Shown here: positions 9,713 to 25,099 of the stretch, in pieces
Layout: each line of letters opens with the position of its first letter
Numbering within the stretch: the stretch's first letter is position 1
Source: Lachnospiraceae bacterium
Lineage (GTDB): Bacteria > Bacillota > Clostridia > Lachnospirales > Lachnospiraceae
Reading direction: 5' to 3'
DNA length: 40,685 nt
Assembly: GCA_017552985.1 (NCBI GenBank)
Contig: JAFZNO010000117.1
Span: forward strand, 1-40,685
Translations under genes and position numbers: made by a program
The notes under the pieces: generated by a model
The model's input: only the letters and a program-made list of their open reading frames with translations
Told to the model about the DNA's origin: nothing
Database searches by the model: none

Positions 9713-9777
9713 GAGATTTTGAAATATTTTGAATTTGTTGCCAGCGGAGACTTTTCGTGTCATAATATAAAACATGC

Positions 9778-10235
9778 AGTAGAAAAACAAGCGGCTGCGA
9801 AGCAGACATTTGTTTTTCATGCATGTTTTAACGAGAAAGCAGATTTGCGAAGCAAATCAAGAAAGCTGCGAAGCAGCGAGCTTTCGAGTTTAGGAATAAA
9901 ACACATAGTAGAAAAACAAGCGGCTGCGAAGCAGACATTTGTTTTTCAAGCATGTTTTAACGAGAAAGCAGATTTGCGAAGCAAATCAAGAAAGCTGCGA
10001 AGCAGCGAGCTTTCGAGTTTAGGAAATAAAACACATAGTAGAAAAACAAGCGGCTGCGAAGCAGACATTTGTTTTTCATGCATGTTTTAACGAGAAAGCA
10101 GATTTGCGAAGCAAATCAAGAAAGCTGCGGAGTAGCGAGCTTTCGAGTTTAGGAATAAAACACATAGTAGAAAAACAAGCGGCTGCGAAGCAAATCAAGA
10201 AAGCTGCGGAGCAGCGAGCTTTCGAGTTTAGGAAG
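9778..10235 (+). repeat. 129-bp tandem repeats made of GCGAAGC mini-hairpins
   Basis: AGTAGAAAAACAAGCGGC starts units at 9778, 9907, 10037 and 10166 (steps of 129, 130, 129); the last unit has an internal deletion. Each full unit holds three short hairpins with a GAA loop: CTGCGAAGCAG, TTGCGAAGCAA and CTGCGAAGCAG, and an outer stem GAAAGCT/AGCTTTC around the last. In the later units the loop changes to GGA while the stem can still pair. Reading frames through it give 43-residue periodic peptides, but the 130-bp step breaks the frame and no ribosome binding site was found, so I treat it as non-coding. It fills the space between the ABC operon promoter and the gene at 10290. Confidence 0.9.
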
Positions 10236-12183: not shown

Positions 12184-12246
12184 TTGACATATTATCAAAA
12201 AGATATTAACATATGCATATAACAGATATATTCAAAATGATAATAA
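12184..12246 (+). promoter_or_regulatory. Promoter and double operator of the SPFH-NADK-NrtR-methyltransferase unit
   Basis: TTGACA (12184-12189), 17-bp spacer, TAACAT (12207-12212). Site 1, ATATTATCAAAAAGATATTA (12189-12208), fills the spacer. Site 2, TTCAAAATGATAATAA (12231-12246), lies downstream of the expected start point; its reverse complement resembles site 1. The whole block is nearly identical to the one at 17266-17327. The Nudix/winged-helix protein encoded at 14241 is the obvious candidate ligand. Confidence 0.75.
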
Positions 12247-12274
12247 CTAAAACAGGGCGAAAGGAGGACGCGGT

Positions 12275-13291
12275 ATGATCAACTACAAGAAATTTGAACC
12301 TACGGAGTACGTGATGAAGGTGAGGAAGGGCGTGACGGTTGCCAAGGGGAAAGGTCTGGCATTTTTATACAATACCAAGACGACCAGTATAGTGGTGGTG
12401 CCGGCAACCTCCATGGAGGCGAGCTTCGCGTTTGATGACGTGATGACCAGCGATTATCAAAGGGTTTGCGTGCAGGGAGACGTTTCGTTTGCCATCCGGA
12501 ATTATGAGCTTGCGGCGAAGATGATCGACTTTTCTTATCGCGACAAGGAAGCGCAGTACAAAGCGGTGCTTGCGGAGGCGAAGAACCGCATGAACAGGCG
12601 CGTGATCAATCTGGTCAGGGTATACGTTACCAAGTTCGTGAATGCATGGGACGTGCGAAGTGCCATGAAAAATCAGAACGTGTTGGCCAACGAACTGCTG
12701 GAAGCCATGAAGGGCGACGCCAGCCTCGCGGAGTTTGGCATGGAGATCCTGGCGATCTCCATTTTGGGAGTTCTGCCGCAACCCGACACGCGGAATGCGT
12801 TGGAGGCAGCCACCAGGGAGGAAATCTTGCGGCAGCAGGATGACGCTCTCTATAAGAGAAGAAACGCCGCGATCGAGCAGGAGCGTGCCATCAGGGAGAA
12901 TGAGCTGAATACCGAGATCCGCGTGGCGGAAAAAGAAAAAGAAAAGCGCGAGCGTGAGATGGAGACGAAGAAGATGCTGGCAGAGCGCGAGGCGCAGCTT
13001 CGTGAGGCGAAGATCGCCGCGGACATCCAGATCGAGGAACAGAACCGGAAGCTGGTAGAGCTTCAGGCTGAGAACGAGAGGCGCAGGTCGGATGCCAAGG
13101 CCTATGACAGCGAAGCACTTCTCCGCACGTTCACCGGCGTAAATCCGGAAGTGCTGAAGGCCCTTGCCATGAGTGGCATGGACAGCAGCGCGCTGATCGC
13201 GAAAGCCTTTGTGGAAATTGGAGAGAAAGCGGACAGGATTGGAACGCTGAACGTATCGCCGGAATTACTTGAAACGTTGAGCGCGCGATAG
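12275..13291 (+). CDS. SPFH/Band 7 (prohibitin-like) domain protein
   Basis: 338 residues. An N-terminal SPFH/PHB-type domain (about 1-190) includes VRKGVTVAKGKGLAFLYNTKTTSIVVVPAT-type beta strands and the ILGVLPQPDTRNALEAATREE transition. A long Glu/Arg-rich coiled coil follows (about 190-280), then a short C-terminal helix region rich in Ala/Leu. There is no clear membrane helix, so association with the membrane would be peripheral or via oligomers. SPFH proteins build ring or cage scaffolds. AAGGAGG lies 7 nt before the ATG. It is the first gene of a four-gene unit; the partner genes suggest that it scaffolds or localises a nucleotide-related activity, which is inference. Confidence 0.88.
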   Translation: MINYKKFEPTEYVMKVRKGVTVAKGKGLAFLYNTKTTSIVVVPATSMEASFAFDDVMTSDYQRVCVQGDVSFAIRNYELAAKMIDFSYRDKEAQYKAVLAEAKNRMNRRVINLVRVYVTKFVNAWDVRSAMKNQNVLANELLEAMKGDASLAEFGMEILAISILGVLPQPDTRNALEAATREEILRQQDDALYKRRNAAIEQERAIRENELNTEIRVAEKEKEKREREMETKKMLAEREAQLREAKIAADIQIEEQNRKLVELQAENERRRSDAKAYDSEALLRTFTGVNPEVLKALAMSGMDSSALIAKAFVEIGEKADRIGTLNVSPELLETLSAR

Positions 13292-13318
13292 CTACCCGGA
13301 TCAGGAAGGAGGGAAGGC

Positions 13319-14248
13319 ATGGAACGAGGCATGAATAAAGTCGTGATCATAAAGAAGCGGACCCGCCTTGAGGAGATGGTCCGGAAGTATAATACCGTTC
13401 AGCAGGCGCGATTTTTTGTGGAGCACATGGGAATGGATTTTGACGATTTCCTTTTGGAGGATGCAAACTACCGCCTGGCGATCGATGCCGTAAAGGAGGC
13501 AGCTGAAAAGCTTGCCAGGGTGCAGCTGATCGACCGCGAATACCTTCCCAACATGATCTTCGGGGAAAACGACGTCTGCGTTGCCGTAGGGCAGGACGGA
13601 CTCGTTGCAAATTCCATGAAATATCTTGACGGACAGCCGCTGATCGGCATCAATCCGGATCCCGCAAGGTTTGACGGCATTTTGCTTCCCTATGAGGCGG
13701 GGGATGCGGAGACCGTTTTGAAAAAGGTTTTGGCGGGCAGACACGGCGACAGGGAAATCACCATGGCTGAGGCCTCCACCAAGGACGGCCAAAGGCTTCT
13801 CGCAGTCAATGACTTGTTTATTGGCTGCAGGAGTCATGCTTCCGCCAGATACCAGATCCAGTGGAACGGGGAGGCAGAGAACCAGTCCTCCAGCGGGATC
13901 ATTGTTTCGACGGGCCTTGGCGCGACGGGCTGGTATAAATCCGTGATCGAGCAGGCAAAGGCCATTGCCGCCTATTTTGGGTGTGGACAAATTCCATACG
14001 AGCCTATAAAATGGAATGAGAGAAAGCTCTCCTTTGTGGTGCGGGAACCGTTTCCGAGCGTGTCGACGCAGGCAGGGATCGTATTCGGCTGCATTGAAAG
14101 GGAAGAGAGCATCAGGATTGTGTCCAACATGCCGGCGGGCGGCGTCATCTTTTCGGACGGCATGGAGGAAGACCGCTTGGAATTCCATGCGGGTAACGAG
14201 GCAGTGATCGGAATTGCCGGAAAGACGGGACGATTGGTTTATGGCTAA
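13319..14248 (+). CDS. NAD kinase-like protein with divergent GQDG motif
   Basis: 309 residues of the NAD kinase/diacylglycerol-kinase-like fold. The first motif reads VAVGQDGLVAN (GQDG at 91-94) instead of the usual GGDGT, keeping the Asp; the next strand is PLIGINPDPARFDG. The second signature is IIVSTGLGATGW, corresponding to the STPTGSTAY region of NAD kinases, and a final strand has GVIFSDGMEE. True NAD kinases phosphorylate the 2' hydroxyl of NAD. With the changed motifs this protein may act on a related nucleotide or may sense NAD. The start has GGAGG 6 nt upstream. Its stop overlaps the next gene by 8 bp, so the two products are probably made together. Confidence 0.85.
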   Translation: MERGMNKVVIIKKRTRLEEMVRKYNTVQQARFFVEHMGMDFDDFLLEDANYRLAIDAVKEAAEKLARVQLIDREYLPNMIFGENDVCVAVGQDGLVANSMKYLDGQPLIGINPDPARFDGILLPYEAGDAETVLKKVLAGRHGDREITMAEASTKDGQRLLAVNDLFIGCRSHASARYQIQWNGEAENQSSSGIIVSTGLGATGWYKSVIEQAKAIAAYFGCGQIPYEPIKWNERKLSFVVREPFPSVSTQAGIVFGCIEREESIRIVSNMPAGGVIFSDGMEEDRLEFHAGNEAVIGIAGKTGRLVYG

Positions 14249-15173
14249 GTACGTTGCATCGAAGGAAGAAAAGGAATACTTAAAGAAATATGACGTTACG
14301 AAATTTGACAGACCTTCCGTGACGGCAGACATTACGGTGTTTGCCGTCAGGGATGAGATGTCGGACGAGGAACTGGCGCAGAGGGATAAGAGTAATTACC
14401 GTAAGGATCCCCTCAGGGAATTGCAGATACTGCTTGTGAAGCGCGCAAGCTATCCCTATCGCAATCAGTGGGCTCTGCCCGGCGGTTTTTCGAAACCGGG
14501 GGAGAGCTGTGATGAGACGGCGAGGCGCGAATTGGAAGAAGAGACGGGAGTCGCGGACGCGTACCTCCGTCCTTTTGGCGTGTTCAGCAATCCCGGCAGG
14601 GATCCGAGAGGGTGGATCATCTCTCACGGGTATCTGGCGCTGATCGACGGCAGAAAATACCGCCTCCACGCCGGAACGGACGCCTGGGAGGCCGCATGGT
14701 TCCGCATTGAGGCAACGAGCACGGAGACGTCCCGGAAGAAAGACAAGAAGAATGGCGTCGTGATAGAGATCCGGCATGATCTTTTCCTGTATCAGAGGGA
14801 AAGGAACTTAAAACTGAAGGTCAGTCTGTTGGAGAAAAAATGGTTTTCCGAATTACACGGATATCACGAATATGAGATCCTGGATGCGGGGGGATTAGCG
14901 TTTGACCATGCCAAGATCGTTTTGAATGCTTTTTTGCACCTGCGCCGCGAGGCGGAAGGGCTGGGGAACGTGATCTTTGACCTCATGCCGGAAAAGTTTA
15001 CGCTGAACCGCCTGCAGAAGGCGTATGAATTGGTGCTGGGAAAAGAGCTCCTGACGGCAAATTTCCGCAGAAAGATAGCCCCGTTGGTTTTGGAGACGGA
15101 GGAGGAGATCGCGGGCGTAGGTCACAGACCGGCAAAACTCTTCAAGAGAAATCCGGAGGAGTTTTATTCTTAG
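14241..15173 (+). CDS. NrtR-type transcriptional regulator: Nudix domain plus winged helix
   Basis: 310 residues. The Nudix domain (about 20-215) has an intact box: GFSKPGE, a 7-residue gap, then RELEEETGV, matching Gx5Ex7REUxEExGU. The FSNPGRDPRGW motif follows, as in ADP-ribose-type Nudix domains. The C-terminal part (about 225-310) matches the NrtR winged helix (MPEKFTLNRLQKAYELVLGKELLTANFRRKI, then a GHRPAKLFK wing). In the known NrtR family this layout gives a repressor released by ADP-ribose or related NAD metabolites. The intact box here could also hydrolyse its ligand. It probably controls its own unit and the radical SAM-Nudix gene through the shared sites. The ATG at 14241 overlaps the previous stop. 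Confidence 0.9.
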   Translation: MAKYVASKEEKEYLKKYDVTKFDRPSVTADITVFAVRDEMSDEELAQRDKSNYRKDPLRELQILLVKRASYPYRNQWALPGGFSKPGESCDETARRELEEETGVADAYLRPFGVFSNPGRDPRGWIISHGYLALIDGRKYRLHAGTDAWEAAWFRIEATSTETSRKKDKKNGVVIEIRHDLFLYQRERNLKLKVSLLEKKWFSELHGYHEYEILDAGGLAFDHAKIVLNAFLHLRREAEGLGNVIFDLMPEKFTLNRLQKAYELVLGKELLTANFRRKIAPLVLETEEEIAGVGHRPAKLFKRNPEEFYS

Positions 15174-15209
15174 TTCCAGGCACTGATTCAAAAACGGTGG
15201 GATGAGATC

Positions 15210-17222
15210 ATGAAAATTATTTTGGACGACGGAATGTCTTTTGATGCAGAGCGCCTTGAAAACGAGGCGTGGCTTTCTTACTTGTATTTTACGGAGCATC
15301 ACGGCATCAACATGGAGCGCGTGGAAGTGGTTGAGCAGGTCAGCGGGCGTGAGACGCTAAGCTACGTGCTCCGGACGTTGGAGGTGCTTGAGGAGGATTA
15401 TTCGGCGGGCCGGTTGGAGCCGAAGGAATATGAGATCGTAAAGCGCGTTTTGGAATGGAGTGAGGTTTCCAAGGGCGGGAGCGTGAAGGAACGGGCGCAG
15501 TGGAGGAAAAAGGGTTATGCGCTGGACATCCACAATATCGCGTCTGCTGAAATATTTCTGGAGCATTGCAGGGAAGGACGATCACCTTATGAAACAAGTC
15601 AGGATGCGGCAGAAACGCAAGATGCCGAGGCGCAAAGGATCGCACTGCTCATCCGCACTCATGGCCTGATTGGGCAGGCTTTGAGAGGTGAAGTTCCCGT
15701 CCGGGAAAATGCGCCTCTCCTTGAGGTGAAGGATGCATTGGGCGAGGATGCGGCATTTCGAGTGCTGACCGTTTTGAACCATTGTATTATCGGTGGCGTT
15801 GCGCCCGGGCTTTGGGAGATGGTTGCGGACGAGGCAAAAAACCTGATCCGAAGGATTCTTTCCGGAGACCTTACGGAGTTTTCCGCGCGGGAGCGCATGA
15901 CGCGCCTGGACGAGCGGCTTACGGAAGCGGGGGACGAGTTGGTCTCCTTTTTTGAAGAGAAGATTTTTCCGCATTATGAGCTGTGGTATTATCAGGCGGC
16001 GTTTGCGGATTTTAACGTCAGTCAGGTGGAATGGCTTCTCCGGAAGATGGTGGAGAAGGTGGAGGATGGGGTGACCTATCTTTCCTTCAAGCCGCTGGCG
16101 GACGGATTATATTATGACTATCAGGGAAAAAAACACCTGAACGTATACAAGGAGCGCATTGTTGAAAAATACATGCGTGACAATGCCACTTCGAACGTGG
16201 AGCTTGTGGTGAAGCGCATTGGCAGGGCAATGCTGATCGATTTCCAGTTTTCGCCCGTTTGCGAAAAGCTGATCGAATTCTGCGTGGAGGCGGAGCGCTC
16301 GGGGTTACTTACGTTTGAAAAGAGCATCACCGTTTTGTATGACATGTTTGGATTCCGCAGGGATGCCTTTGACCGCCTAAACAATGAAGACAAGTATCTT
16401 TCCATCATGAATGACAGTGAGGAGAGCACAAAGAATTCCATCATCGATTACGTGACGGGACAGACGGCGGTTGACGTGGGCAGCGGCGGTGGCGTGCTCC
16501 TGGATCTGTTGGAGGAGCGGTATCCTGAAAAGAAGATCATTGGCACCGACGTGTCGGACAACGTGCTTCAGGTCCTGGAGAAGAAAAAGAAGGAGGAGGG
16601 GCACGCTTGGACGGTGCGGCGCCATAACTTTGCCGAAGAGCCTTTTATGGAAAAGGCGGACTCGATCATCTTTTCTTCCATTTTGCATGAGATCTTTTCC
16701 TATACGGAGACGGAGAACGGCAGGTTTGAGATCGGGACGGTGAGGACGGCACTCCAAAATGCGTATGCTTCCTTAAATCCCGGTGGCCGCATTATCATCC
16801 GCGACGGCGTGAAATCGCCTGTGGACGGGTCCGTGATCGAGGTTAGGTTCAAGGATCCCGAGGGCATGGAGTTTTTTAGGAATTACGTGCGTGACTTTGA
16901 GGGGCTCAAGGATATTGAGGATAAGAAGATCAAGGTTTTTGAGCAGGAAGAAAAGGTCAGCGCCGACGCGAATTTTATCAGAGAGTTTTTGTATACCTAC
17001 ACCTGGGGAAAGCAAAGCTATGCCCATGAGGTACAGGAGCAGTTTGGATATTTCACCATCGAGGAGTTCCGGGAATTCTTTGAAGGGCTGGGCGCGCGGA
17101 TCCTTCGCTGCGACGCATTTTTGGAACCTGGGTACGTAACGCACCTCTCGCCCAAGGTGGAGCTTTCCGTGCCGGAATATCCCAATTCCAATTGCATTGT
17201 CGTGGTTGAAAAACCGAGGTAA
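15210..17222 (+). CDS. Large two-part protein: unknown N-terminal domain and class I SAM methyltransferase
   Basis: 670 residues. The C-terminal part (about 400-670) is a Rossmann methyltransferase: motif I VDVGSGGGVLLDLL (421 onward), the motif II acid in KIIGTDVSDN, and the post-I/IV region SIIFSSILHEIFSY followed by LNPGGRIIIRDGVK. The N-terminal 400 residues are mostly helical and not recognised; notable is LIRTHGLIGQALRGEVPVRE (about 148-165), with conserved-looking His and Arg, and NHCIIGG at 190. No membrane segment is present. The methyl acceptor is unknown; the size of the N-terminal part suggests that it binds a macromolecule or carries a second activity. It is the last gene of the SPFH unit, 36 bp after the regulator gene. 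Confidence 0.85.
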   Translation: MKIILDDGMSFDAERLENEAWLSYLYFTEHHGINMERVEVVEQVSGRETLSYVLRTLEVLEEDYSAGRLEPKEYEIVKRVLEWSEVSKGGSVKERAQWRKKGYALDIHNIASAEIFLEHCREGRSPYETSQDAAETQDAEAQRIALLIRTHGLIGQALRGEVPVRENAPLLEVKDALGEDAAFRVLTVLNHCIIGGVAPGLWEMVADEAKNLIRRILSGDLTEFSARERMTRLDERLTEAGDELVSFFEEKIFPHYELWYYQAAFADFNVSQVEWLLRKMVEKVEDGVTYLSFKPLADGLYYDYQGKKHLNVYKERIVEKYMRDNATSNVELVVKRIGRAMLIDFQFSPVCEKLIEFCVEAERSGLLTFEKSITVLYDMFGFRRDAFDRLNNEDKYLSIMNDSEESTKNSIIDYVTGQTAVDVGSGGGVLLDLLEERYPEKKIIGTDVSDNVLQVLEKKKKEEGHAWTVRRHNFAEEPFMEKADSIIFSSILHEIFSYTETENGRFEIGTVRTALQNAYASLNPGGRIIIRDGVKSPVDGSVIEVRFKDPEGMEFFRNYVRDFEGLKDIEDKKIKVFEQEEKVSADANFIREFLYTYTWGKQSYAHEVQEQFGYFTIEEFREFFEGLGARILRCDAFLEPGYVTHLSPKVELSVPEYPNSNCIVVVEKPR

Positions 17223-17223
17223 T

Positions 17224-17253
17224 GGGTCAGGGGGGGACGGTTCCCCTTGACCC
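17224..17253 (+). terminator. Terminator ending the SPFH-methyltransferase unit
   Basis: GGGTCAGGGG pairs with CCCCTTGACCC around a GGGACGGTT loop with one G-T pair, followed by ATAAAAAATAT. It belongs to the same hairpin type as 12132-12157 and directly precedes the promoter of the radical SAM-Nudix gene. Confidence 0.75.
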
Positions 17254-17265
17254 ATAAAAAATATC

Positions 17266-17327
17266 TTGACATATTATCAAAATGATATTATGATAAGGAT
17301 ACAAAGATAATTTCAAATTGATAATAA
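17266..17327 (+). promoter_or_regulatory. Promoter and double operator of the radical SAM-Nudix gene
   Basis: TTGACA (17266-17271), 17-bp spacer, TATGAT (17289-17294). Site 1, ATATTATCAAAATGATATTA (17271-17290), differs from the site at 12189 by one base. Site 2, TTTCAAATTGATAATAA (17311-17327), matches the site at 12231 apart from two bases. Site 1 to site 2 distance is 41 bp here and 42 bp at the other promoter, near four helical turns, which suits cooperative binding by a dimeric regulator. Confidence 0.78.
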
Positions 17328-17383
17328 CAAGAATAAATATAGCAAAGGTCAGCCGAGATTCTGGCGGCGGAAAGGAGACAGTC

Positions 17384-19195
17384 ATGAAGTGTAAAGAAGT
17401 TTTTGAAAGAGGAATCCAGTTCCATCATTATTGCAACACCGCGTACCCGCTCCGGCCCAATTCCCTGGCGCAGTATGAACTCCATGACGACCAGGCAATC
17501 TATGAGCTGGTGAAAAGGAATATTGAAGCGCAGGACGAGTTGTGTCTTTACGTTCACGTTCCCTTCTGTCAGTCCAGGTGTAAGTTCTGCGAATACGTGG
17601 TGATGAACAATCCCTCCGAGAAGGATCCGGACGTTTACGTGGAGCATTTGCTGAAGGAAATCGAGATTTACCGCGAGATCATCAAGGACAAGCCGATCGT
17701 GGGTTATGACTTGGGAGGCGGCACGCCGGCATACTTGTCTGTTGAGAATCTGCGTAAGATCACACAGTCCATCCAACGGTTTAACTTAAAGGAAAACATG
17801 TATTTAAGCGTGGAGACCACGCCTGTGATCGCTGCCAATGATCCGGAAAAGATCAAGGCGCTCCGGGAGCTGGGTTATAACAGAATCTCCATGGGATTCC
17901 AGACCGTATCCCCAAAGCTCCTCGAATCCCTTGGCCGCGAAGGGTCGGAATTCATTTATGAAAAGGCCGTTCAGAATATCCGCAAGGCGGGCTTTGACAG
18001 GCTCAACATTGACTTGATGTATGGGTTCCTGAATCAGTCGGATGAGGATTTTGCCAATACGATCCGGTATACGATCGCCATGGACCCGGAATTCATCACG
18101 CTTTACAGAAACCGTTACAAGGGAACCTTGCTAGAGGCGGAGTCGCAGGGCGTGACGCTCTATAAAGTCAACCGCCAATATGACATTGCCTATCGCCTTC
18201 TGAAGCAGGCGGGATACGTGGCCAACAATGGAAAGAATACCTTTAGCCGCATTCCAGGGGACTATGGCACTTCCTCCTATCTGACGAAGCGCGTGGTCGA
18301 AGTGACTTCTTACGTGGGATTTGGCCTTGGGGCGCAGTCCTTTGTCGGAAACTACCTGGCATATAATCTGGGTTGCGTGGATCATAAGCTTGAAAAGTAT
18401 CTCAAGGCGACGGAGGAGGGGAAGCTTCCGATCAATGACATTGCCGACATGCCGGTCAGTGAGGTCCGCGCAAAGGCGATCTCCGTTATGTTCTACTTCG
18501 GATTCATCTCCATGAAGGCTTATCAGAAAAGGTTTCATGAAGATTTCCGCGAGATTTATGCGTCCCAGATCCGCTTCCTGACCGACAGCAGCCTCATGGA
18601 ATTTGTGGACGAGGATACCTTCATGCTGACGGATTACGGCGCGGCGCATCTCTATGGCATCATTCCGCTGTTCTACAGTGAGAGAAGCATTATCGAAATG
18701 TTTAACATGTCCGACCGCTGGCTTAATGACAAAAAGGGTGAGGAGATCTATCTGGAAAAGTATGACAGGAAAGCCTTCGACGCACCTTCCGTGGCAGTGG
18801 ATCTCCTGGTGTTTAATCAGGACAGAACGAAGATCCTTCTGATCAAGCGTGCGGATCACCCGTTCGTCAACCGCATGGCACTTCCCGGCGGATTCTATAA
18901 GCCGACGGATGATAATCTGGAGTTTGCGGCGACCCGGGAACTGATGGAGGAGACCTCCGTTTTTGTGAAGGTGACGGAAAAGAATCTGGTGAAGGTGACG
19001 TCCACGAAAAACAGAGACCCCAGGGGCTGGGTCATCAGCGTGGCTTACGCGCTGGAACTGGACGAAAGTAAGGTAAAGCCAGTGGCCAACAGTGATGCAC
19101 TGTTCGCAACCTGGGTCGACGTATCCGCGCTGGAGAAAGAAAAAATGGCCTTTGACCATTATGCCATCATACAATATGCATTAAAGCAGGCTTAA
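17384..19195 (+). CDS. HemN-like radical SAM protein fused to an NrtR-type Nudix domain
   Basis: 603 residues. The radical SAM part carries CQSRCKFC (Cys62, 66, 69; CxxxCxxC), preceded by CLYVHVPF as in HemN/HemW proteins, and the GGGTP motif in YDLGGGTPAYL. A HemN-like C-terminal region runs to about 440. The last 150 residues are a Nudix domain starting KYDRKAFDAPSVAVDLLVF and including RDPRGWVISVAY, as in the regulator at 14241. Its box is degenerate: the first Glu is displaced and the last Gly is Ser (GGFYKPTDD...RELMEETSV), so it may bind rather than cleave. It ends at AFDHYAIIQYAL, exactly where the regulator continues into its winged helix. AAGGAG lies 6 nt before the ATG. Annotation as coproporphyrinogen oxidase would be unsafe. 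Confidence 0.9.
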   Translation: MKCKEVFERGIQFHHYCNTAYPLRPNSLAQYELHDDQAIYELVKRNIEAQDELCLYVHVPFCQSRCKFCEYVVMNNPSEKDPDVYVEHLLKEIEIYREIIKDKPIVGYDLGGGTPAYLSVENLRKITQSIQRFNLKENMYLSVETTPVIAANDPEKIKALRELGYNRISMGFQTVSPKLLESLGREGSEFIYEKAVQNIRKAGFDRLNIDLMYGFLNQSDEDFANTIRYTIAMDPEFITLYRNRYKGTLLEAESQGVTLYKVNRQYDIAYRLLKQAGYVANNGKNTFSRIPGDYGTSSYLTKRVVEVTSYVGFGLGAQSFVGNYLAYNLGCVDHKLEKYLKATEEGKLPINDIADMPVSEVRAKAISVMFYFGFISMKAYQKRFHEDFREIYASQIRFLTDSSLMEFVDEDTFMLTDYGAAHLYGIIPLFYSERSIIEMFNMSDRWLNDKKGEEIYLEKYDRKAFDAPSVAVDLLVFNQDRTKILLIKRADHPFVNRMALPGGFYKPTDDNLEFAATRELMEETSVFVKVTEKNLVKVTSTKNRDPRGWVISVAYALELDESKVKPVANSDALFATWVDVSALEKEKMAFDHYAIIQYALKQA

Positions 19196-19353: not shown

Positions 19354-21384
19354 ATGAAATATGATAAATTGGCAGGAGCACCCAAGAAAAAGAATAAGAA
19401 GAAAATCATTTTGATCATTGTTATTCTTGTGATCCTATTGGCTGCAGGCGGATGTGCGCTGTGGTTTTTCTTTGGGAAAAATGCAGGAAAAAATGCGAAG
19501 AGGCAAGGCTTTGGCTCAGGAGCTTTTGGCAATTTTGGCAGCGGCAGCTCCTTAAACGTAAATTTGCAGGGAAAGGTGACGGCGTCTGGCGTGACGAACG
19601 TGGGAACGGTTTCGGAGACCTTTGACGTCACGGAGCTGGAGACGGAGTTAAGGATAGAGCAGGTGTACGTTGCTTCCGGCGATGAGCTTAAGGCCGGGGA
19701 CAAGATCTTGAAGCTGACGGAAGAGAGCGTTGAGAATGCGCGGAAGGAACTACAGGAAAAGGAACGGGACGCGGAGCTTTCCTACCGGACGGGCGCGATC
19801 GAGTATGAGAGAAGCAAGATCGCCGCAGAATATGACAGGGACAGCACAAAACTAAGCGGAACGCAGGCAGATGGCGTATATCAGGACAGCTTGCTCGACA
19901 TGGCACAGGACGTGGAAACGGCACAAAGCAAGCTGGATGAGGCTAAGGCCCAGATCCAGGAATACGCAACCCTGGCAGATCCGGATGCCTGCAGGGCATA
20001 CTATAAGGTAGATGAGTATCAAAGGATCTATGATGAAAACCTGAAAATCCTCACGGATAACGTAGAAAAATGGGGAATTTACTGGTCCCAAGTGACGGGG
20101 GCAGGCGGAGGCGCTTCCATGGGAGGTTCCGGAGGCAGCGCTGGATCCATGAGCGGTGCGGGAGCAATGAGTGGTTCCGGAGGCGCCGCAGGGGGAATGA
20201 GCGGATCCTTTGGCGGAGCAGACGCCATGGGAGGTTCCATGGGGAGCGCTGGTTCCGGCAGCATGGGATCCGGCAGCGTGAACATTGGAAATTCTTCCCT
20301 CATAACAGTTACGGCTTCTGACGAGAAAGGCCAGTGGGTGACCATCCTAAAGAATTTATTTTCTGTTTTGGAGCAGAACCTTTCGGATCTGGAAAATGCC
20401 AAGGAACAATACGAAGAGGCATTAGCGACGGCGAGCCTTGAGAAGAAGCTGTTGGAGCTTTCCCTGCCGGAACTGGAAGAAAACTTGGCACAGGCGAAGG
20501 CATCCTATGAAAAAGCCATTTTACAGAATCAGCTGACAAAGGAAAAGAGCATTTCCAACGCGGACAGAGCAGATCATGATTATGAAACGGCTCTGGAAAA
20601 GGCGGAAAGCGATTTTGAAGCTTTGAAGAGTGCCTGGGAAGACGCGAAAAAGAATCTGGAAATCTTTGAGGAACAGGTGGGTGACGGCTACTTCCGGGCT
20701 TCCGCAGACGGAAGCGTGCTGAGGAATTCCGTGAGGGCAAACGGCGTGCTGCGGGCATCCGCAACGATCCTCACCTATGGCGACCTTACCGCCATGACGG
20801 TCACGGTATCCGTTGACCAGAGTGACGTTGCAAAGATCAAGCCTGGCGACGCGGCTTTGGTGGCATCCCAAAAGGGTGCGATGCTGGACGGCGTGGTGAA
20901 ATCCGTCAATCCCGTATCAAATTCTGAGAGCAGAAACAACGTAACCTATAGCGTAACGGTGGAAGTGGACGGTGCGGGAGCACTTGGAAGTAATGAATCC
21001 GTGACGGTTGTCTTCGGAATGACGACGGCAGACGTATCCACTGGAAATAATGGAAATGCCGCGGACGGAACGGGTGAGGGAAATTCTAACGGTGAAAGAC
21101 CTGGCAGGGGTGACGGCGAGAGACCCAGCTGGGGAGACGGTGAAATGCCAAACTTTGGAGACGGTCAGATGCCGAACTGGGGAGACGGAGAGATGCCAAA
21201 CTTCGGAGACGGTGAAATGCCAAACTTCGGAGACGGTCAGATGCCGAACTGGGGCGACGGAGAGATGCCAAACTTCGGCGACGGTCAGATGCCGAACTTT
21301 GGAGACGGCCAGATGCCAAACTTCGGAGACGGTGAGAGACCGGAGAGACCTAGCGGAAGAAAAGGAAAGGACGACGATGAATGA
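19354..21384 (+). CDS. HlyD/RND-type adaptor 1 of a MacB-type efflux system, with Gly/Ser/Met insert and MPNFGDG tail
   Basis: 676 residues. After a Lys-rich cytoplasmic start, one membrane helix lies at about 18-40. A barrel-sandwich half (about 68-122, VYVASGDELKAGDKILKL) follows, then a long coiled-coil hairpin. The tip of the hairpin holds a Gly/Ser/Met-rich insert (249-309). The second half includes YFRASADGSVLRN and a beta-barrel (VSVDQSDVAKIKPGD). The last 110 residues are a tail of GDGxMPNFGDG repeats ending in Lys/Asp-rich sequence. Adaptors link MacB-type permeases to extracytoplasmic partners. Length is well above the usual 350-450 because of the insert and tail. GAGGAG precedes the ATG; the stop overlaps the next start (ATGA). 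Confidence 0.9.
   Translation: MKYDKLAGAPKKKNKKKIILIIVILVILLAAGGCALWFFFGKNAGKNAKRQGFGSGAFGNFGSGSSLNVNLQGKVTASGVTNVGTVSETFDVTELETELRIEQVYVASGDELKAGDKILKLTEESVENARKELQEKERDAELSYRTGAIEYERSKIAAEYDRDSTKLSGTQADGVYQDSLLDMAQDVETAQSKLDEAKAQIQEYATLADPDACRAYYKVDEYQRIYDENLKILTDNVEKWGIYWSQVTGAGGGASMGGSGGSAGSMSGAGAMSGSGGAAGGMSGSFGGADAMGGSMGSAGSGSMGSGSVNIGNSSLITVTASDEKGQWVTILKNLFSVLEQNLSDLENAKEQYEEALATASLEKKLLELSLPELEENLAQAKASYEKAILQNQLTKEKSISNADRADHDYETALEKAESDFEALKSAWEDAKKNLEIFEEQVGDGYFRASADGSVLRNSVRANGVLRASATILTYGDLTAMTVTVSVDQSDVAKIKPGDAALVASQKGAMLDGVVKSVNPVSNSESRNNVTYSVTVEVDGAGALGSNESVTVVFGMTTADVSTGNNGNAADGTGEGNSNGERPGRGDGERPSWGDGEMPNFGDGQMPNWGDGEMPNFGDGEMPNFGDGQMPNWGDGEMPNFGDGQMPNFGDGQMPNFGDGERPERPSGRKGKDDDE
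21130..21345 (+). repeat. 24-bp in-frame minisatellite coding for GDGxMPNF/W repeats
   Basis: About nine copies of a GGAGACGGTGAAATGCCAAA-like unit lie in the 3' end of adaptor gene 1, each encoding eight residues (GDG, E or Q, MPN, F or W). Copies differ only by silent changes and by Glu/Gln and Phe/Trp swaps, so the array is recent and could vary in length without breaking the frame. Confidence 0.85.
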
Positions 21385-23270
21385 TGGGTAATGCAAAAGG
21401 AAAGAAGAGAGGCAAAAAAAGAATCAAGATCTTTCTTGTGATCGTTGCCTTCCTGGCACTTTTGGCAGCAGCGGGCTATACCGTATTCATTGCGCCGCTT
21501 TTGAAGAAGGATCAGTGGATTTATAAAGAGGTTCTGGTACAAAAAGGAACCCTCGCGGTAGGCGTAACGGAGAGCGGAGCGCTAACCTATGGGATCACGG
21601 AACTGAATTACGGCCTGGATCTGGATACGAGCACGGATGACGACGATGAGGAGGACGAGGAAGAGGTTGTAAAGTATCTGCAGGTGGAAGAGGTTTACGT
21701 CTCTGCGGGACAGAAGATCACGAAGGGTGACGCGCTTGTAAAGATTTCGGAAAGCAGCATCACCGGCGTAAGAAGGCAGTTGGACAGTGCTCTGGTCGAG
21801 GCAAAGACGGAATATAATGAGGCATTGGCTGATTATGAGCTTTCCGCTTTGGAAGCAAACCTGGATTATGAGAGTTCGCTGATCGATTCCAAATATGCGA
21901 AATCCATTTATAACAACAACGTTAAAAGCTTAAACGGAGACGTTCAGAGCTTGAAGGTTCAGTTGGAGGAATGTCAGTCCAAGACGGCGACGCTAACGCA
22001 AAAGCTCCAGGACGCACAGGACGGCTTTGGCGAACTTGAGCAGAAATATAAAGATGCCAAGGCAGCATGGGAAGCGGCAGACATTGCTGAGGCAGTAAAT
22101 TATACGTACTACGAAAGAGCCTATATCAATGCCCAATCGTCTTATCAGAATGCAAAGGATCAGATCAAGCAGGCAAAGCAGGCACTGGCAGATAATGAAA
22201 AGCAGATTACCACCCTGACGCGTCAGATCAATGCCAGTAAGGCGGCAAAGGAGCTCAATGGCTTACAGGTTGACGGGACCTATCAGGAAAGCGTGCTGAG
22301 CGGTGAAAATGCCAAGGTAATCTATGATTCGACGATGGAGGGATTAAAGGAAGATCTCCAAAAGGCGCAGGATGAACTGGATCAGGCGCAGAAACGCAAG
22401 GATGATTTTGAAGCGTTTGTGGGTGAGGATGGAATGCTCTACGCTTCAGAGGACGGAATCATAACGGAAGTATCCTGCACGGCAGGACAGACGCTGGAGA
22501 GACAGCAGACGCTTCTGACATATGCGAAACCAAGCGAGATGACCATCTCCGTGGACGTTACCCAGGAGGACGTTGTCAACCTGGCGGTGGGCGATAAGGT
22601 AAGTATTAGCTTTACGGCATACCCGGACGTACCCTACGAGGGAATCATCCATTCCATCGAAACCACGGCGACCTCCAGAAACACTGACACGGTCAGCTAC
22701 ACCGTGGTAGTTGCGGTGGAAGGCGAGACGGACGGATTGTACGGCGGCATGACCTCTGACATCATATTTGTTCTGGAGGAAAAAGAGGACATTCTTTACG
22801 TCTCCCGTAAGGCCATCGTGGAAGAAGACGGCAAAACTCTTGTCTACGTGAAGGATGCGGACGGCAAAATGGTACTTAGGGAAGTGAAGACGGGAATCAC
22901 GAATGGCGTCAGCATCGAGATCACGGAAGGCCTTCAGGAAGGCGAAACCATTTATCTGGCAAGTATAGTCAGCTCAGCGACGGAAGTAACGGGAGAGGCA
23001 GAGAGTGGTAACGGAAAGAATTCCGGAGAGGCTGGCGATGGAAGCAAACGACAGGACGGCAGCATGCCAAGCGGCGAAATGCCTAGCTTTGACGGCATGC
23101 CTGACATGGAGAACATGCCGGACTTCGGTGGCAGCATGCCAGACTTTGGAGGTAGCATGCCAGACTTCGGAGGTAGCATGCCAGACTTCGGAGGCGGAAT
23201 GCCGGGCGGCGGCTCCAGACCGGAAGGTGGATCGAGACCAAGTAGAAACTCAGGAGGAAGTAAGCAGTGA
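21381..23270 (+). CDS. HlyD/RND-type adaptor 2, with acidic insert and MPDFGGS tail
   Basis: 629 residues with a Lys/Arg-rich start, a membrane helix (about 16-38), a barrel-sandwich domain (VEEVYVSAGQKITKGDAL), a long coiled-coil hairpin (about 140-345), a second barrel-sandwich half (LYASEDGIITEVSCTAGQTL) and a beta-barrel plus membrane-proximal domain (MTISVDVTQEDVVNLAVGD, LYVSRKAIVEEDGKTLVYV). The position that is plain in adaptor 1 carries an Asp/Glu run here (about 83-96). The tail (about 555-629) has MPDFGGS repeats. It overlaps both neighbours by 4 bp. Three different adaptors for one permease suggest a mixed adaptor assembly; this is inference. Confidence 0.9.
   Translation: MMGNAKGKKRGKKRIKIFLVIVAFLALLAAAGYTVFIAPLLKKDQWIYKEVLVQKGTLAVGVTESGALTYGITELNYGLDLDTSTDDDDEEDEEEVVKYLQVEEVYVSAGQKITKGDALVKISESSITGVRRQLDSALVEAKTEYNEALADYELSALEANLDYESSLIDSKYAKSIYNNNVKSLNGDVQSLKVQLEECQSKTATLTQKLQDAQDGFGELEQKYKDAKAAWEAADIAEAVNYTYYERAYINAQSSYQNAKDQIKQAKQALADNEKQITTLTRQINASKAAKELNGLQVDGTYQESVLSGENAKVIYDSTMEGLKEDLQKAQDELDQAQKRKDDFEAFVGEDGMLYASEDGIITEVSCTAGQTLERQQTLLTYAKPSEMTISVDVTQEDVVNLAVGDKVSISFTAYPDVPYEGIIHSIETTATSRNTDTVSYTVVVAVEGETDGLYGGMTSDIIFVLEEKEDILYVSRKAIVEEDGKTLVYVKDADGKMVLREVKTGITNGVSIEITEGLQEGETIYLASIVSSATEVTGEAESGNGKNSGEAGDGSKRQDGSMPSGEMPSFDGMPDMENMPDFGGSMPDFGGSMPDFGGSMPDFGGGMPGGGSRPEGGSRPSRNSGGSKQ
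23108..23200 (+). repeat. 21-bp in-frame repeats coding for MPDFGGS
   Basis: Four near-identical 21-bp units (ATGCCAGACTTCGGAGGTAG type) at the 3' end of adaptor gene 2. Unit length and sequence differ from the 24-bp array of adaptor 1, although both give Met-Pro-x-Phe-Gly peptides. Confidence 0.8.
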
Positions 23271-25099
23271 GTTTTAGCAAAAAGGGAGAAACAAAGCTTA
23301 CAAAAGGGAATAAAAAGCAGAAGATCATGCTGGGCGCATTTCTGCTGATCTGCGTGATCGCGATCGCGGTGATCGTGATCTGGAAAAAACGTCCTGCGGA
23401 AGAAGTGGTCACTTACAAAGAGATCGCAGCATCCACGGGAGTTTTGGAGTCAGGGGTATCGCAGCGCGGAAGCATTGACATCGGTACGATCGAGCAAAGC
23501 TTTGAGCTTGACATGAGCGCGCTCCAGAGAGTGAATACTTCGAGTAGCGGATCCTCCTCTTCGTCAGGATCGAAAAGCCAAGGCGGCATGAGCTCCGGCG
23601 GCATGAGCTCTGGCAGCATGGGCTCCGGCGGAATGGGAGCCGGTGGCATGGATTTCGGCGGTTTTGGTTCCTCGGGCGGCAGTTCGGGAGGCAGTAGTTC
23701 AGGCGGTGGCTTTGGCGGCGGAATGGATCTGTTTGGGCAGGCCAGAAATCTCGCCGGAAACAATACGTTCACGAAGTCTGACGACTCTTCCAGCCTGACC
23801 GTTGAGGAAGTGTGCGTGTCCGTGGGCCAGGAGATCAAGAAGGGTGACGTTCTTTACGTTTTGGAAGAGGAATCCGTCCAGAAGCTGAAAGAGACGCTGG
23901 AGTCCAACGTGGAAAAGGCAAAGGCAGATCTGGAAATGCTGTATGCGGATCAAAAGGTTTCCAAACAGAACGCGCAGAATACCTATGACGTAAGCGTTGC
24001 ATACGGAAGCTACATGCAGACGGAATATAATGAGACCATCGCTGAATTGCAGGATGCGGTAAACGAAGCGAATGACACGCTGACGCAGGCGAAGGAAACG
24101 CTTGCAGAGTATGAGGCACTGCTCGCAGAGACGCAAACGGCATATGATAAGGCAGTCCAGTCCCTGAAGAATTGTGAATGGAGCAGGGACAATACGGCAA
24201 AGGAAAGTGAAGTATACTTTTACGTTTATTACTTCCAGCTTACGCAGCAGGCGGAGAACATTGAGAGTCAGTTAAAGCAAAAGAAGGAACAGCTGGAAAG
24301 CCGCGTGGAGAGCGCAAAGAGTACCGTTTCCCGCGCGCAGAAGTCCTTGAATCAGGCCAAGAGACGCTTAGAGCAGGGTAAGCTGGAGGCCCAGGAGACC
24401 TTGCAGTTAAGACAGTTGGCGTATAATACCGCACAGGAAACTTTGGACGTGACCCTTGCTTATCTGGAGATCGATGCGAAGGAGCAGGAGGACACCTACG
24501 CGGACGCGCAGGAGAAATGGGAATCCTTCTCAGCTTACGTGGACGGATGCAACGTCTGCTCACAGTATGACGGGACGGTCACTTCCGTTGAGCTTGGCGT
24601 TGGGGATACGGTGGGAACCAATTCCCTTCTCGTAACCCTGAACAGCCGCGCGGACGTGACGATGACGGTGACGATCGACGAAGACGACATGAGCGGAATC
24701 GAGGTTGGGACCAAGGCGAACGTTGTTCTAACGGCGTTCCCCGAGGAAGTGTTTGAGGCTTACGTTACGGAGATTTCGGAAGCACAGTCTGACAGATCCG
24801 GCAACGTTACTTATGAAGTGACCGCAACGCTCCAGGGAGAGCTGGAAAAGCTTTATCAGAGCATGACGGGCGAGATCACTTTCATCACCGGAAAGACGGA
24901 AGCGGAAGTGCTCTACGTACCGAAGCGTGCCGTGACCACAAACGGTGAAAAGTCGACCGTGAAGGTGAAGACGGCAGACGGCCAGGTGGTGGAAAGAGAA
25001 GTTGTCACCGGCTTTACGGATGGCGTTAACGTAGAAATCAAAGAAGGTCTGACGGACGGCGAGATCGTTTTGACGGAAAGCAGGGGGAAGACGAAATGA
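23267..25099 (+). CDS. HlyD/RND-type adaptor 3, with Gly/Ser/Met-rich insert
   Basis: 610 residues starting with GTG at 23267, overlapping the previous stop by 4 bp. A membrane helix lies at about 22-43. Between the first beta strand (SIDIGTIEQSFELDMSALQ) and the lipoyl-like SLTVEEVCVSVGQEIKKGDVLY there is a Gly/Ser/Met stretch (about 88-152; GGMSSGGMSSGSMGSGGMG), at the place where adaptor 2 has its acidic run. A coiled-coil hairpin, barrel-sandwich half (VCSQYDGTVTSVELGVGDTV), beta-barrel (MTVTIDEDDMSGIEVGT) and membrane-proximal domain follow. It has no repeat tail. The stop overlaps the permease start (ATGA). Confidence 0.9.
   Translation: MSFSKKGETKLTKGNKKQKIMLGAFLLICVIAIAVIVIWKKRPAEEVVTYKEIAASTGVLESGVSQRGSIDIGTIEQSFELDMSALQRVNTSSSGSSSSSGSKSQGGMSSGGMSSGSMGSGGMGAGGMDFGGFGSSGGSSGGSSSGGGFGGGMDLFGQARNLAGNNTFTKSDDSSSLTVEEVCVSVGQEIKKGDVLYVLEEESVQKLKETLESNVEKAKADLEMLYADQKVSKQNAQNTYDVSVAYGSYMQTEYNETIAELQDAVNEANDTLTQAKETLAEYEALLAETQTAYDKAVQSLKNCEWSRDNTAKESEVYFYVYYFQLTQQAENIESQLKQKKEQLESRVESAKSTVSRAQKSLNQAKRRLEQGKLEAQETLQLRQLAYNTAQETLDVTLAYLEIDAKEQEDTYADAQEKWESFSAYVDGCNVCSQYDGTVTSVELGVGDTVGTNSLLVTLNSRADVTMTVTIDEDDMSGIEVGTKANVVLTAFPEEVFEAYVTEISEAQSDRSGNVTYEVTATLQGELEKLYQSMTGEITFITGKTEAEVLYVPKRAVTTNGEKSTVKVKTADGQVVEREVVTGFTDGVNVEIKEGLTDGEIVLTESRGKTK

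Follow-up and report, generated by a model that had tools for sequence, protein, structure and literature searches.

Do the five genes at positions 12184-19195 of a stretch of Lachnospiraceae bacterium DNA (GCA_017552985.1, contig JAFZNO010000117.1, forward strand; the whole 40,685-nt stretch is here called the window) form one system, and to what would such a system respond? The original prediction took them for an undescribed five-gene system, in which an SPFH protein, an NAD-kinase-like protein (NADKL), an NrtR-type regulator, a methyltransferase (MT) and a radical SAM-Nudix protein (RSN) are held together by a gene overlap and two near-identical promoters and answer to NAD or ADP-ribose. 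The five genes, the overlap of NADKL with NrtR and the twin promoters are all present as described. Sequence comparison partly supports the larger claim, namely a real NrtR-type gene set with one predicted operator in both promoters and ties to NAD and ADP-ribose genes in some other genomes. The part that is kept across phyla is the SPFH-NADKL pair, often with NrtR, while MT and RSN are optional. The locus is laid out as follows.

12184-12250, + strand: promoter P1, with operator-like sites at 12190-12208 and 12227-12245
12275-13291, + strand: SPFH/Band-7 protein of 338 aa, with a Band_7 match
13319-14248, + strand: NADKL of 309 aa, NADK2-type, with GQDG, ND and SSSG-TG-G..W motifs
14241-15173, + strand: NrtR-type regulator (Nudix and winged helix), its start ATG within the 3' end of NADKL
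15210-17222, + strand: MT, a Class I methyltransferase near NF005379/PRK06922, starting 36 bp after NrtR
17266-17328, + strand: promoter P2, a near copy of P1, with operator-like sites at 17272-17290 and 17308-17326
17384 (ATG) to 19195, + strand: RSN, HemN-like, with Radical_SAM and a C-terminal NUDIX domain, no winged helix

A profile of ten NADKLs was run against 84,980 species genomes, and among at least 592 pattern matches examined a relative was found in at least 581 stretches, making this a widespread though scattered gene pair. Locus counts out of 80 refer to the best 80 of these at least 581 stretches, kept with their flanks; eight further loci were added to give 88. The predicted SPFH gene lies beside NADKL in all 80, no more than 150 bp away in 78 and overlapping it in 41 (open reading frame calls); in L044 the gap of 2 kb holds two DUF4291 genes and a PARG-like gene. 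By record titles the 80 loci span about nine phyla: Bacillota, Pseudomonadota, Spirochaetota, Planctomycetota, Acidobacteriota (Pyrinomonadaceae), Verrucomicrobiota, Lentisphaerota, Actinomycetota (Coriobacteriia) and Hydrogenedentota. An NrtR-like gene is present in 48/80 loci by BLAST and in 56/88 by phmmer. These comparisons show that the predicted SPFH and NADKL proteins make up a two-gene core conserved across phyla, often accompanied by an NrtR-type regulator.

Rare co-occurrence of the five families had been named as the finding that would refute the five-gene system, and this is what the search gave. Among the genomes seen, the complete set of five is confined to this one and a genome of the same genus (L036; JAILLF010000027.1, an Acetatifactor metagenome-assembled genome), where the order is kept with one extra gene between MT and RSN. 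With MT in 5/80 core loci and full-length RSN in 1/80, we reject a conserved five-gene unit; what the search found is a smaller and far wider SPFH-NADKL system. The gene inserted in L036 (14050-15041) encodes, by eye, a small membrane protein. Within the lineage of the window the distribution of NADKL is patchy: full-strength NADKL occurs in 2/37 genomes of the genus and NADKL in 5/391 genomes of the class, own genome included in both. Plasmid records matching the query number 68, of which 42 are from Rhizobium, and in 57 at least 80% of the query is covered. We found no account of the SPFH-NADKL pair among the open-licence papers listed, and literature searches gave none of the NrtR-type gene set either. 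The 2012 work of De Souza and Aravind on NAD-utilising gene neighbourhoods may mention the pair already.

The nucleotide-kinase fold foreseen for the second gene is borne out, as NADKL has the features of the NAD-kinase fold. Both the profile search and the predicted structure (VIA-align) give human mitochondrial NADK2 (C5orf33, PDB 7r4j/7n29), not a bacterial NAD kinase, as the closest solved relative, and on sequence evidence NADKL groups with the mitochondrial enzyme, apart from the bacterial NAD kinases. The likeness is distant: identity to human NADK2 is 22%, and NADKL is bacterial and encoded in an operon with SPFH. The window NADKL has no Pfam match at E 0.01, PF01513 included, 7/49 aligned rows match PF01513 at 0.01, and NCBIfam gives weak NAD-kinase matches (4e-6), far below cut-off. 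One study (PMC6675116) found no consistent prokaryotic sister clade for the NADK genes of eukaryotes, among them mitochondrial NADK2. In NADKL there is a candidate from bacteria for such kinship, one that can be placed in a tree. As a candidate for the genome's own NAD kinase NADKL was rejected, a regular NAD kinase being encoded on contig C85 (66.7 bits).

We aligned the window NADKL with 48 of the 80 locus proteins (49 rows); a comparison alignment included 7 ordinary NAD kinases, five of them taken from weak-match loci, and another used the window protein and 19/80. At the GGDG position the motif reads G-Q/R-D-G (GQDG or GRDG) in 49/49 rows, in a column partly fixed by the motif patterns used to find the loci, and the catalytic Asp is kept. 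Human NADK2 has GGDGT there, whereas NADKL has GQDGL or GRDGL in nearly all rows. An excerpt of PMC8553519 calls GGDG common to all NAD kinases and also defines an NE/D short motif, which NADKL satisfies with Asn-Asp in 49/49 rows. A tentative alternative is that NADKL is a pseudokinase: with NAD(P) or ADP-ribose bound, it would pass a signal to the SPFH assembly, or through it, and phosphorylate nothing. The replaced second Gly would fit this, and with the regular kinase on C85 the NADP supply need not come from NADKL. On the other side, Asp93, Asn164-Asp165 and Thr198 and the residues around them are invariant, which suggests that the chemistry is kept.

The window SPFH protein matches Band_7 with 30.7 bits against a cut-off of 23.6 (4e-7) and is stomatin-like by profile (1e-4). 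It has the SPFH domain in common with Stomatin/Erlin proteins, but unlike these it lacks an N-terminal hydrophobic segment and carries a C-terminal motif of its own, G.LN.SP.LL, conserved in 70/80 loci. An N-terminal membrane anchor is common, not universal, in SPFH/Band 7 proteins. By hydropathy only, the 19 residues that score highest begin at residue 149, within the SPFH domain, and no anchor is seen; the membrane scaffold proposed for this protein is thus not supported.

The third gene had been called an ADP-ribose-type Nudix regulator. Its NrtR architecture is confirmed, with Nudix (PF00293, 64 bits, 2e-17) and NrtR_WHD (PF21906, 64.6 bits, 9e-18) both above cut-off and the Nudix box intact, while ADP-ribose or a related NAD derivative would be its ligand. 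Effectors listed for the NrtR family in an excerpt of PMC4666351 include ADP-ribose, NAD and L-arabinose. The NCBIfam equivalog for ADP-ribose-responsive repressors, NF050029, gives 138 bits against a cut-off of 400. With these repressors, among them the Shewanella NrtR (3gz5/3gz6), the window NrtR shares Nudix, winged helix and, judging from sequence only, palindromic operators in the promoters that it would control; unlike theirs, its predicted targets are SPFH-NADKL, MT and RSN and not NAD synthesis. None of the five genes belongs to NAD synthesis or salvage. That no NAD synthesis gene is present, as had been noted, is true of the window; elsewhere in the genome, on contig C30 (L131, 149-3607), a second NrtR lies beside nicotinamidase-like, NAPRTase and NAD synthase genes, in what is apparently a canonical-looking NAD salvage row.

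Trees of NrtR were built from core-linked rows of 180-340 aa (53 loci and the window), with two NrtRs of genome G530 left out. The window regulator falls in a set of 15 (100/99) composed of 13 core-linked NrtRs, the NrtR of genome G602 and a fusion protein of genome G492; the salvage NrtR of C30 and the NrtR of genome G145 fall outside. In many Clostridia the core-linked NrtRs have an intact Nudix box, and R-K-L...K-T-G replaces R-E-L...E-T-G in most Proteobacteria rows, which suggests that hydrolysis may have been lost there. The NrtR of Treponema saccharophilum is carried on a plasmid and sits in the Butyrivibrio clade. As an operator word, AGTAGyA, is also common to both groups, transfer across phyla between Treponema and Butyrivibrio appears probable.

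P1 and P2 are alike over 64 bp at 84% (2.6e-11), in agreement with the near-identity claimed for them. Both carry TTGACATATTATCAAAAwGATATTA, with the palindrome TATTATCA-n3-TGATAwTA in the -35/-10 spacer and a second copy 36-37 bp downstream, and the comparison thus shows that the two promoters share the same predicted operator pair. In the 3.86 Mb genome three operator-like sites have two mismatches or fewer, all in P1/P2, and at up to three mismatches 4/9 lie there; the pattern read backwards gave 1 match. Hairpin-like GGGTCAG...CTGACC sequences stand directly before P1 (12131-12158) and P2 (about 17224-17255) by eye, of which a pattern search (up to 3 mismatches) recovered only the first; they look like repeated extragenic elements.

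Other Clostridia (L038, L040, L041) have a similar two-site design ahead of their SPFH gene, and the operator is found in L036 too. SPFH promoters of Butyrivibrio and Treponema have other operator words, AGTAGyA... (L023, L050, L052, L045-L049), and four Paenibacillus promoters (L074, L079, L104, L113) have a two-site palindrome TAATGTC...GACATTA. No NrtR was found within the 10-kb flanks of these four loci; the regulator would therefore be encoded elsewhere or be of another kind. Such differing words fit with NrtR operators, which, according to PMC4666351, differ widely from group to group. Two-site SPFH promoters score in 14/85 loci, several of them close relatives and so not independent cases, against a mean of 0.25 (maximum 2) over 40 shuffles. 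This count covers 85/88 SPFH promoters; P2 and the L142 promoter stand outside it and were judged by eye, P2 also by the P1/P2 comparison and the genome scan. In an earlier two-site test these two did not pass (7/100 and 15/100 shuffles reached their scores). Palindromes between -35 and -10 occur in 16/86 loci (of 88), a count without shuffle control.

RSN was proposed to be a radical SAM enzyme with its own copy of the Nudix module, and its domains agree: it has Radical_SAM, the CX3CX2C cluster motif and an NrtR-like NUDIX domain with a degenerate box. It has the radical SAM domain and this motif in common with HemN-like enzymes (1olt; the STM4012 family; the methyltransferase NocN, 9p2u), but it stays below the cut-offs of the families shown (157 bits against 325 for the HemN coproporphyrinogen oxidase model TIGR00538) and differs in its fusion to an NrtR-like Nudix domain. 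In MT, Methyltransf_12 matches residues 421-528. About 400 residues before this Rossmann domain had been called unknown; they have no Pfam match, although MT resembles NF005379 over nearly its whole length (574.6 bits, cut-off 602).

Of 397 genomes searched in the family, 3 besides the window's own encode relatives of RSN (E up to 1e-60) and 4 encode relatives of MT, and full-strength NADKL occurs in none of these seven. One of them, G492, a Lachnospiraceae genome of another genus, encodes a 737-residue fusion of Radical_SAM, HemN_C, NUDIX and NrtR_WHD, in which the RSN relative is joined to the whole regulator; this is the only NrtR_WHD match in that genome, and its promoter reads TTGACATCTTATTATCAAAGTGATATTATC, close to the window operator. 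In another, G602 (L144), also of the Lachnospiraceae, NrtR lies directly before MT; the two adjoin in L055 as well, and MT follows NADKL in Butyrivibrio L045 and L048. The operator, the fusion and the NrtR-MT pairing tie RSN and MT to this NrtR subfamily by more than position alone, and the window NrtR probably also controls RSN in this genome. The links of the radical SAM protein and the methyltransferase to the core are indirect. In such a fusion a radical enzyme and a transcription factor would share one chain, which offers a direct way to learn what the cassette senses.

Alternatively, MT and RSN could be neighbours of convenience that share or copied a promoter, with only SPFH, NADKL and NrtR functional. 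Their rarity at core loci and their occurrence in other genomes without the core speak for this. We nevertheless think it unlikely, as in another genus the operator stands before an unlinked relative of RSN that bears the NrtR DNA-binding domain, an NrtR-MT pair exists in a core-less genome, both of these regulators (G602, G492) fall in the clade of the window NrtR, and in L036 the operator before RSN is kept despite the inserted gene. RSN matches occur in five core loci, in four of them as Nudix-only or radical-SAM-only (L070, L075, L106, L110). In plasmid records no RSN match covers 80%, the 15 matches listed covering the radical SAM part; MT has 3 partial matches, in Bacillus.

By Pfam, NADAR and PARG lie directly before the core in L043, PARG and RlaP after it in L051, DUF4291 in L044, NAMPT in L110 and an isochorismatase-fold (nicotinamidase-like) gene in L038; in L055 the order is NrtR-MT-SPFH-NADKL, then Hen1 and Pnkp. 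Genes of NAD/ADP-ribose type lie near the core in 13/87 loci (phmmer). In a minority of genomes, gene content thus appears to link the core with the chemistry of NAD and ADP-ribose; in two genomes the apparent link is with RNA repair. Genes of bacterial Pnkp/Hen1 RNA repair or of NADAR/PARG ADP-ribose removal belong to the core gene row in L055, L051, L043 and L044; unlike in those loci, none is seen beside the core in the window.

These neighbours also bear on whether NADKL is a second, inducible source of NADP, a plain NAD kinase on an SPFH scaffold under oxidative stress, as in mitochondria. NADK2, the closest structure to NADKL, is an NAD kinase tied to the elimination of reactive oxygen species (PMC8553519, in excerpt). 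Such a role is improbable in our view: the donor motif of NADKL is altered, and the recognised neighbours, in a minority of loci only and with redox genes not searched for, suggest roles in NAD salvage, ADP-ribose removal or RNA repair.

We favor a local NrtR regulon, in which a putative ADP-ribose/NAD-sensing repressor governs an NADK2-type enzyme held by an SPFH scaffold and the partner genes are interchangeable, and give it a probability of a little under one half. Concerning ligand, substrate, scaffold and output, we propose that NrtR occupies two sites, the operator in the -35/-10 spacer and the one downstream of it, and would leave them as the level of ADP-ribose or a related NAD derivative goes up. 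The SPFH protein could form a soluble ring or cage that holds NADKL, which would bind an NAD-like nucleotide and phosphorylate it using the altered donor site (GQDG). The cassette could then answer NAD loss or ADP-ribose release, with different helpers added by different hosts: NAD salvage, ADP-ribose removal or RNA repair, and here MT and RSN, whose Nudix domain may sense the same ligand as NrtR. Should the ADP-ribose link hold, bacteria of rumen, gut, soil and root nodules would have one more layer of NAD/ADP-ribose homeostasis. A more far-reaching version appears doubtful to us, namely a horizontally spread cassette, switched by an NrtR subfamily also fused to radical SAM, whose NADK2-type enzyme is altered at the phosphate-donor site, works on a soluble SPFH assembly and handles an ADP-ribose-derived metabolite, this bacterial enzyme family being the missing prokaryotic kin of mitochondrial NADK2.

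Several points weigh against the regulon that we favor. The GQDG/GRDG motif may mean that kinase activity is lost, and the 80 loci were chosen as best matches to two query motifs, so that motif counts are partly ascertained. NrtR was not found in 32/88 core loci (many Paenibacillus, some short contigs). The near/far comparison of NAD/ADP-ribose-type genes (23 near, 2 far) is biased, as the gene families were chosen among genes close to the core; once the 11 query genes are subtracted, 12 near and 2 far remain (p = 0.0037), and 74/87 loci have no such genes near the core. The clade argument is weakly controlled because the NrtRs of C30 and G145 are the only ones in the trees not linked by position to core, MT or fusion, and that of G145 pairs with a core-linked row (99/99). 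The Nudix domain of the window RSN, on a long branch, does not group with the core NrtR clade. The RSN relative of G705 (79%) has Nudix and no winged helix, in a genome without core or NrtR_WHD match, that of G607 has neither Nudix nor winged helix, and the genomes G734 and G684 have MT but neither the core nor an NrtR_WHD match.

The scatter across phyla, the 57 well-covered plasmid records and the RNA-repair partners in two loci could also indicate an anti-phage or other conflict system. We regard this as very unlikely, since PADLOC gives only a generic Nudix model (PDC-S07), on NrtR and RSN, and no match was found among phage records or viral contigs; a phage or viral origin is rejected on the latter ground.

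Elsewhere in the window, a 129-bp unit is repeated 3.3 times (96% match) at 9767-10192, directly upstream of a small gene cluster. Downstream of RSN, at 19354-25099, three successive efflux-adaptor-like genes precede one for a membrane protein and another for an ATP-binding protein, as judged by eye, and the first of the three has GDGEMPNF-type repeats at its end.

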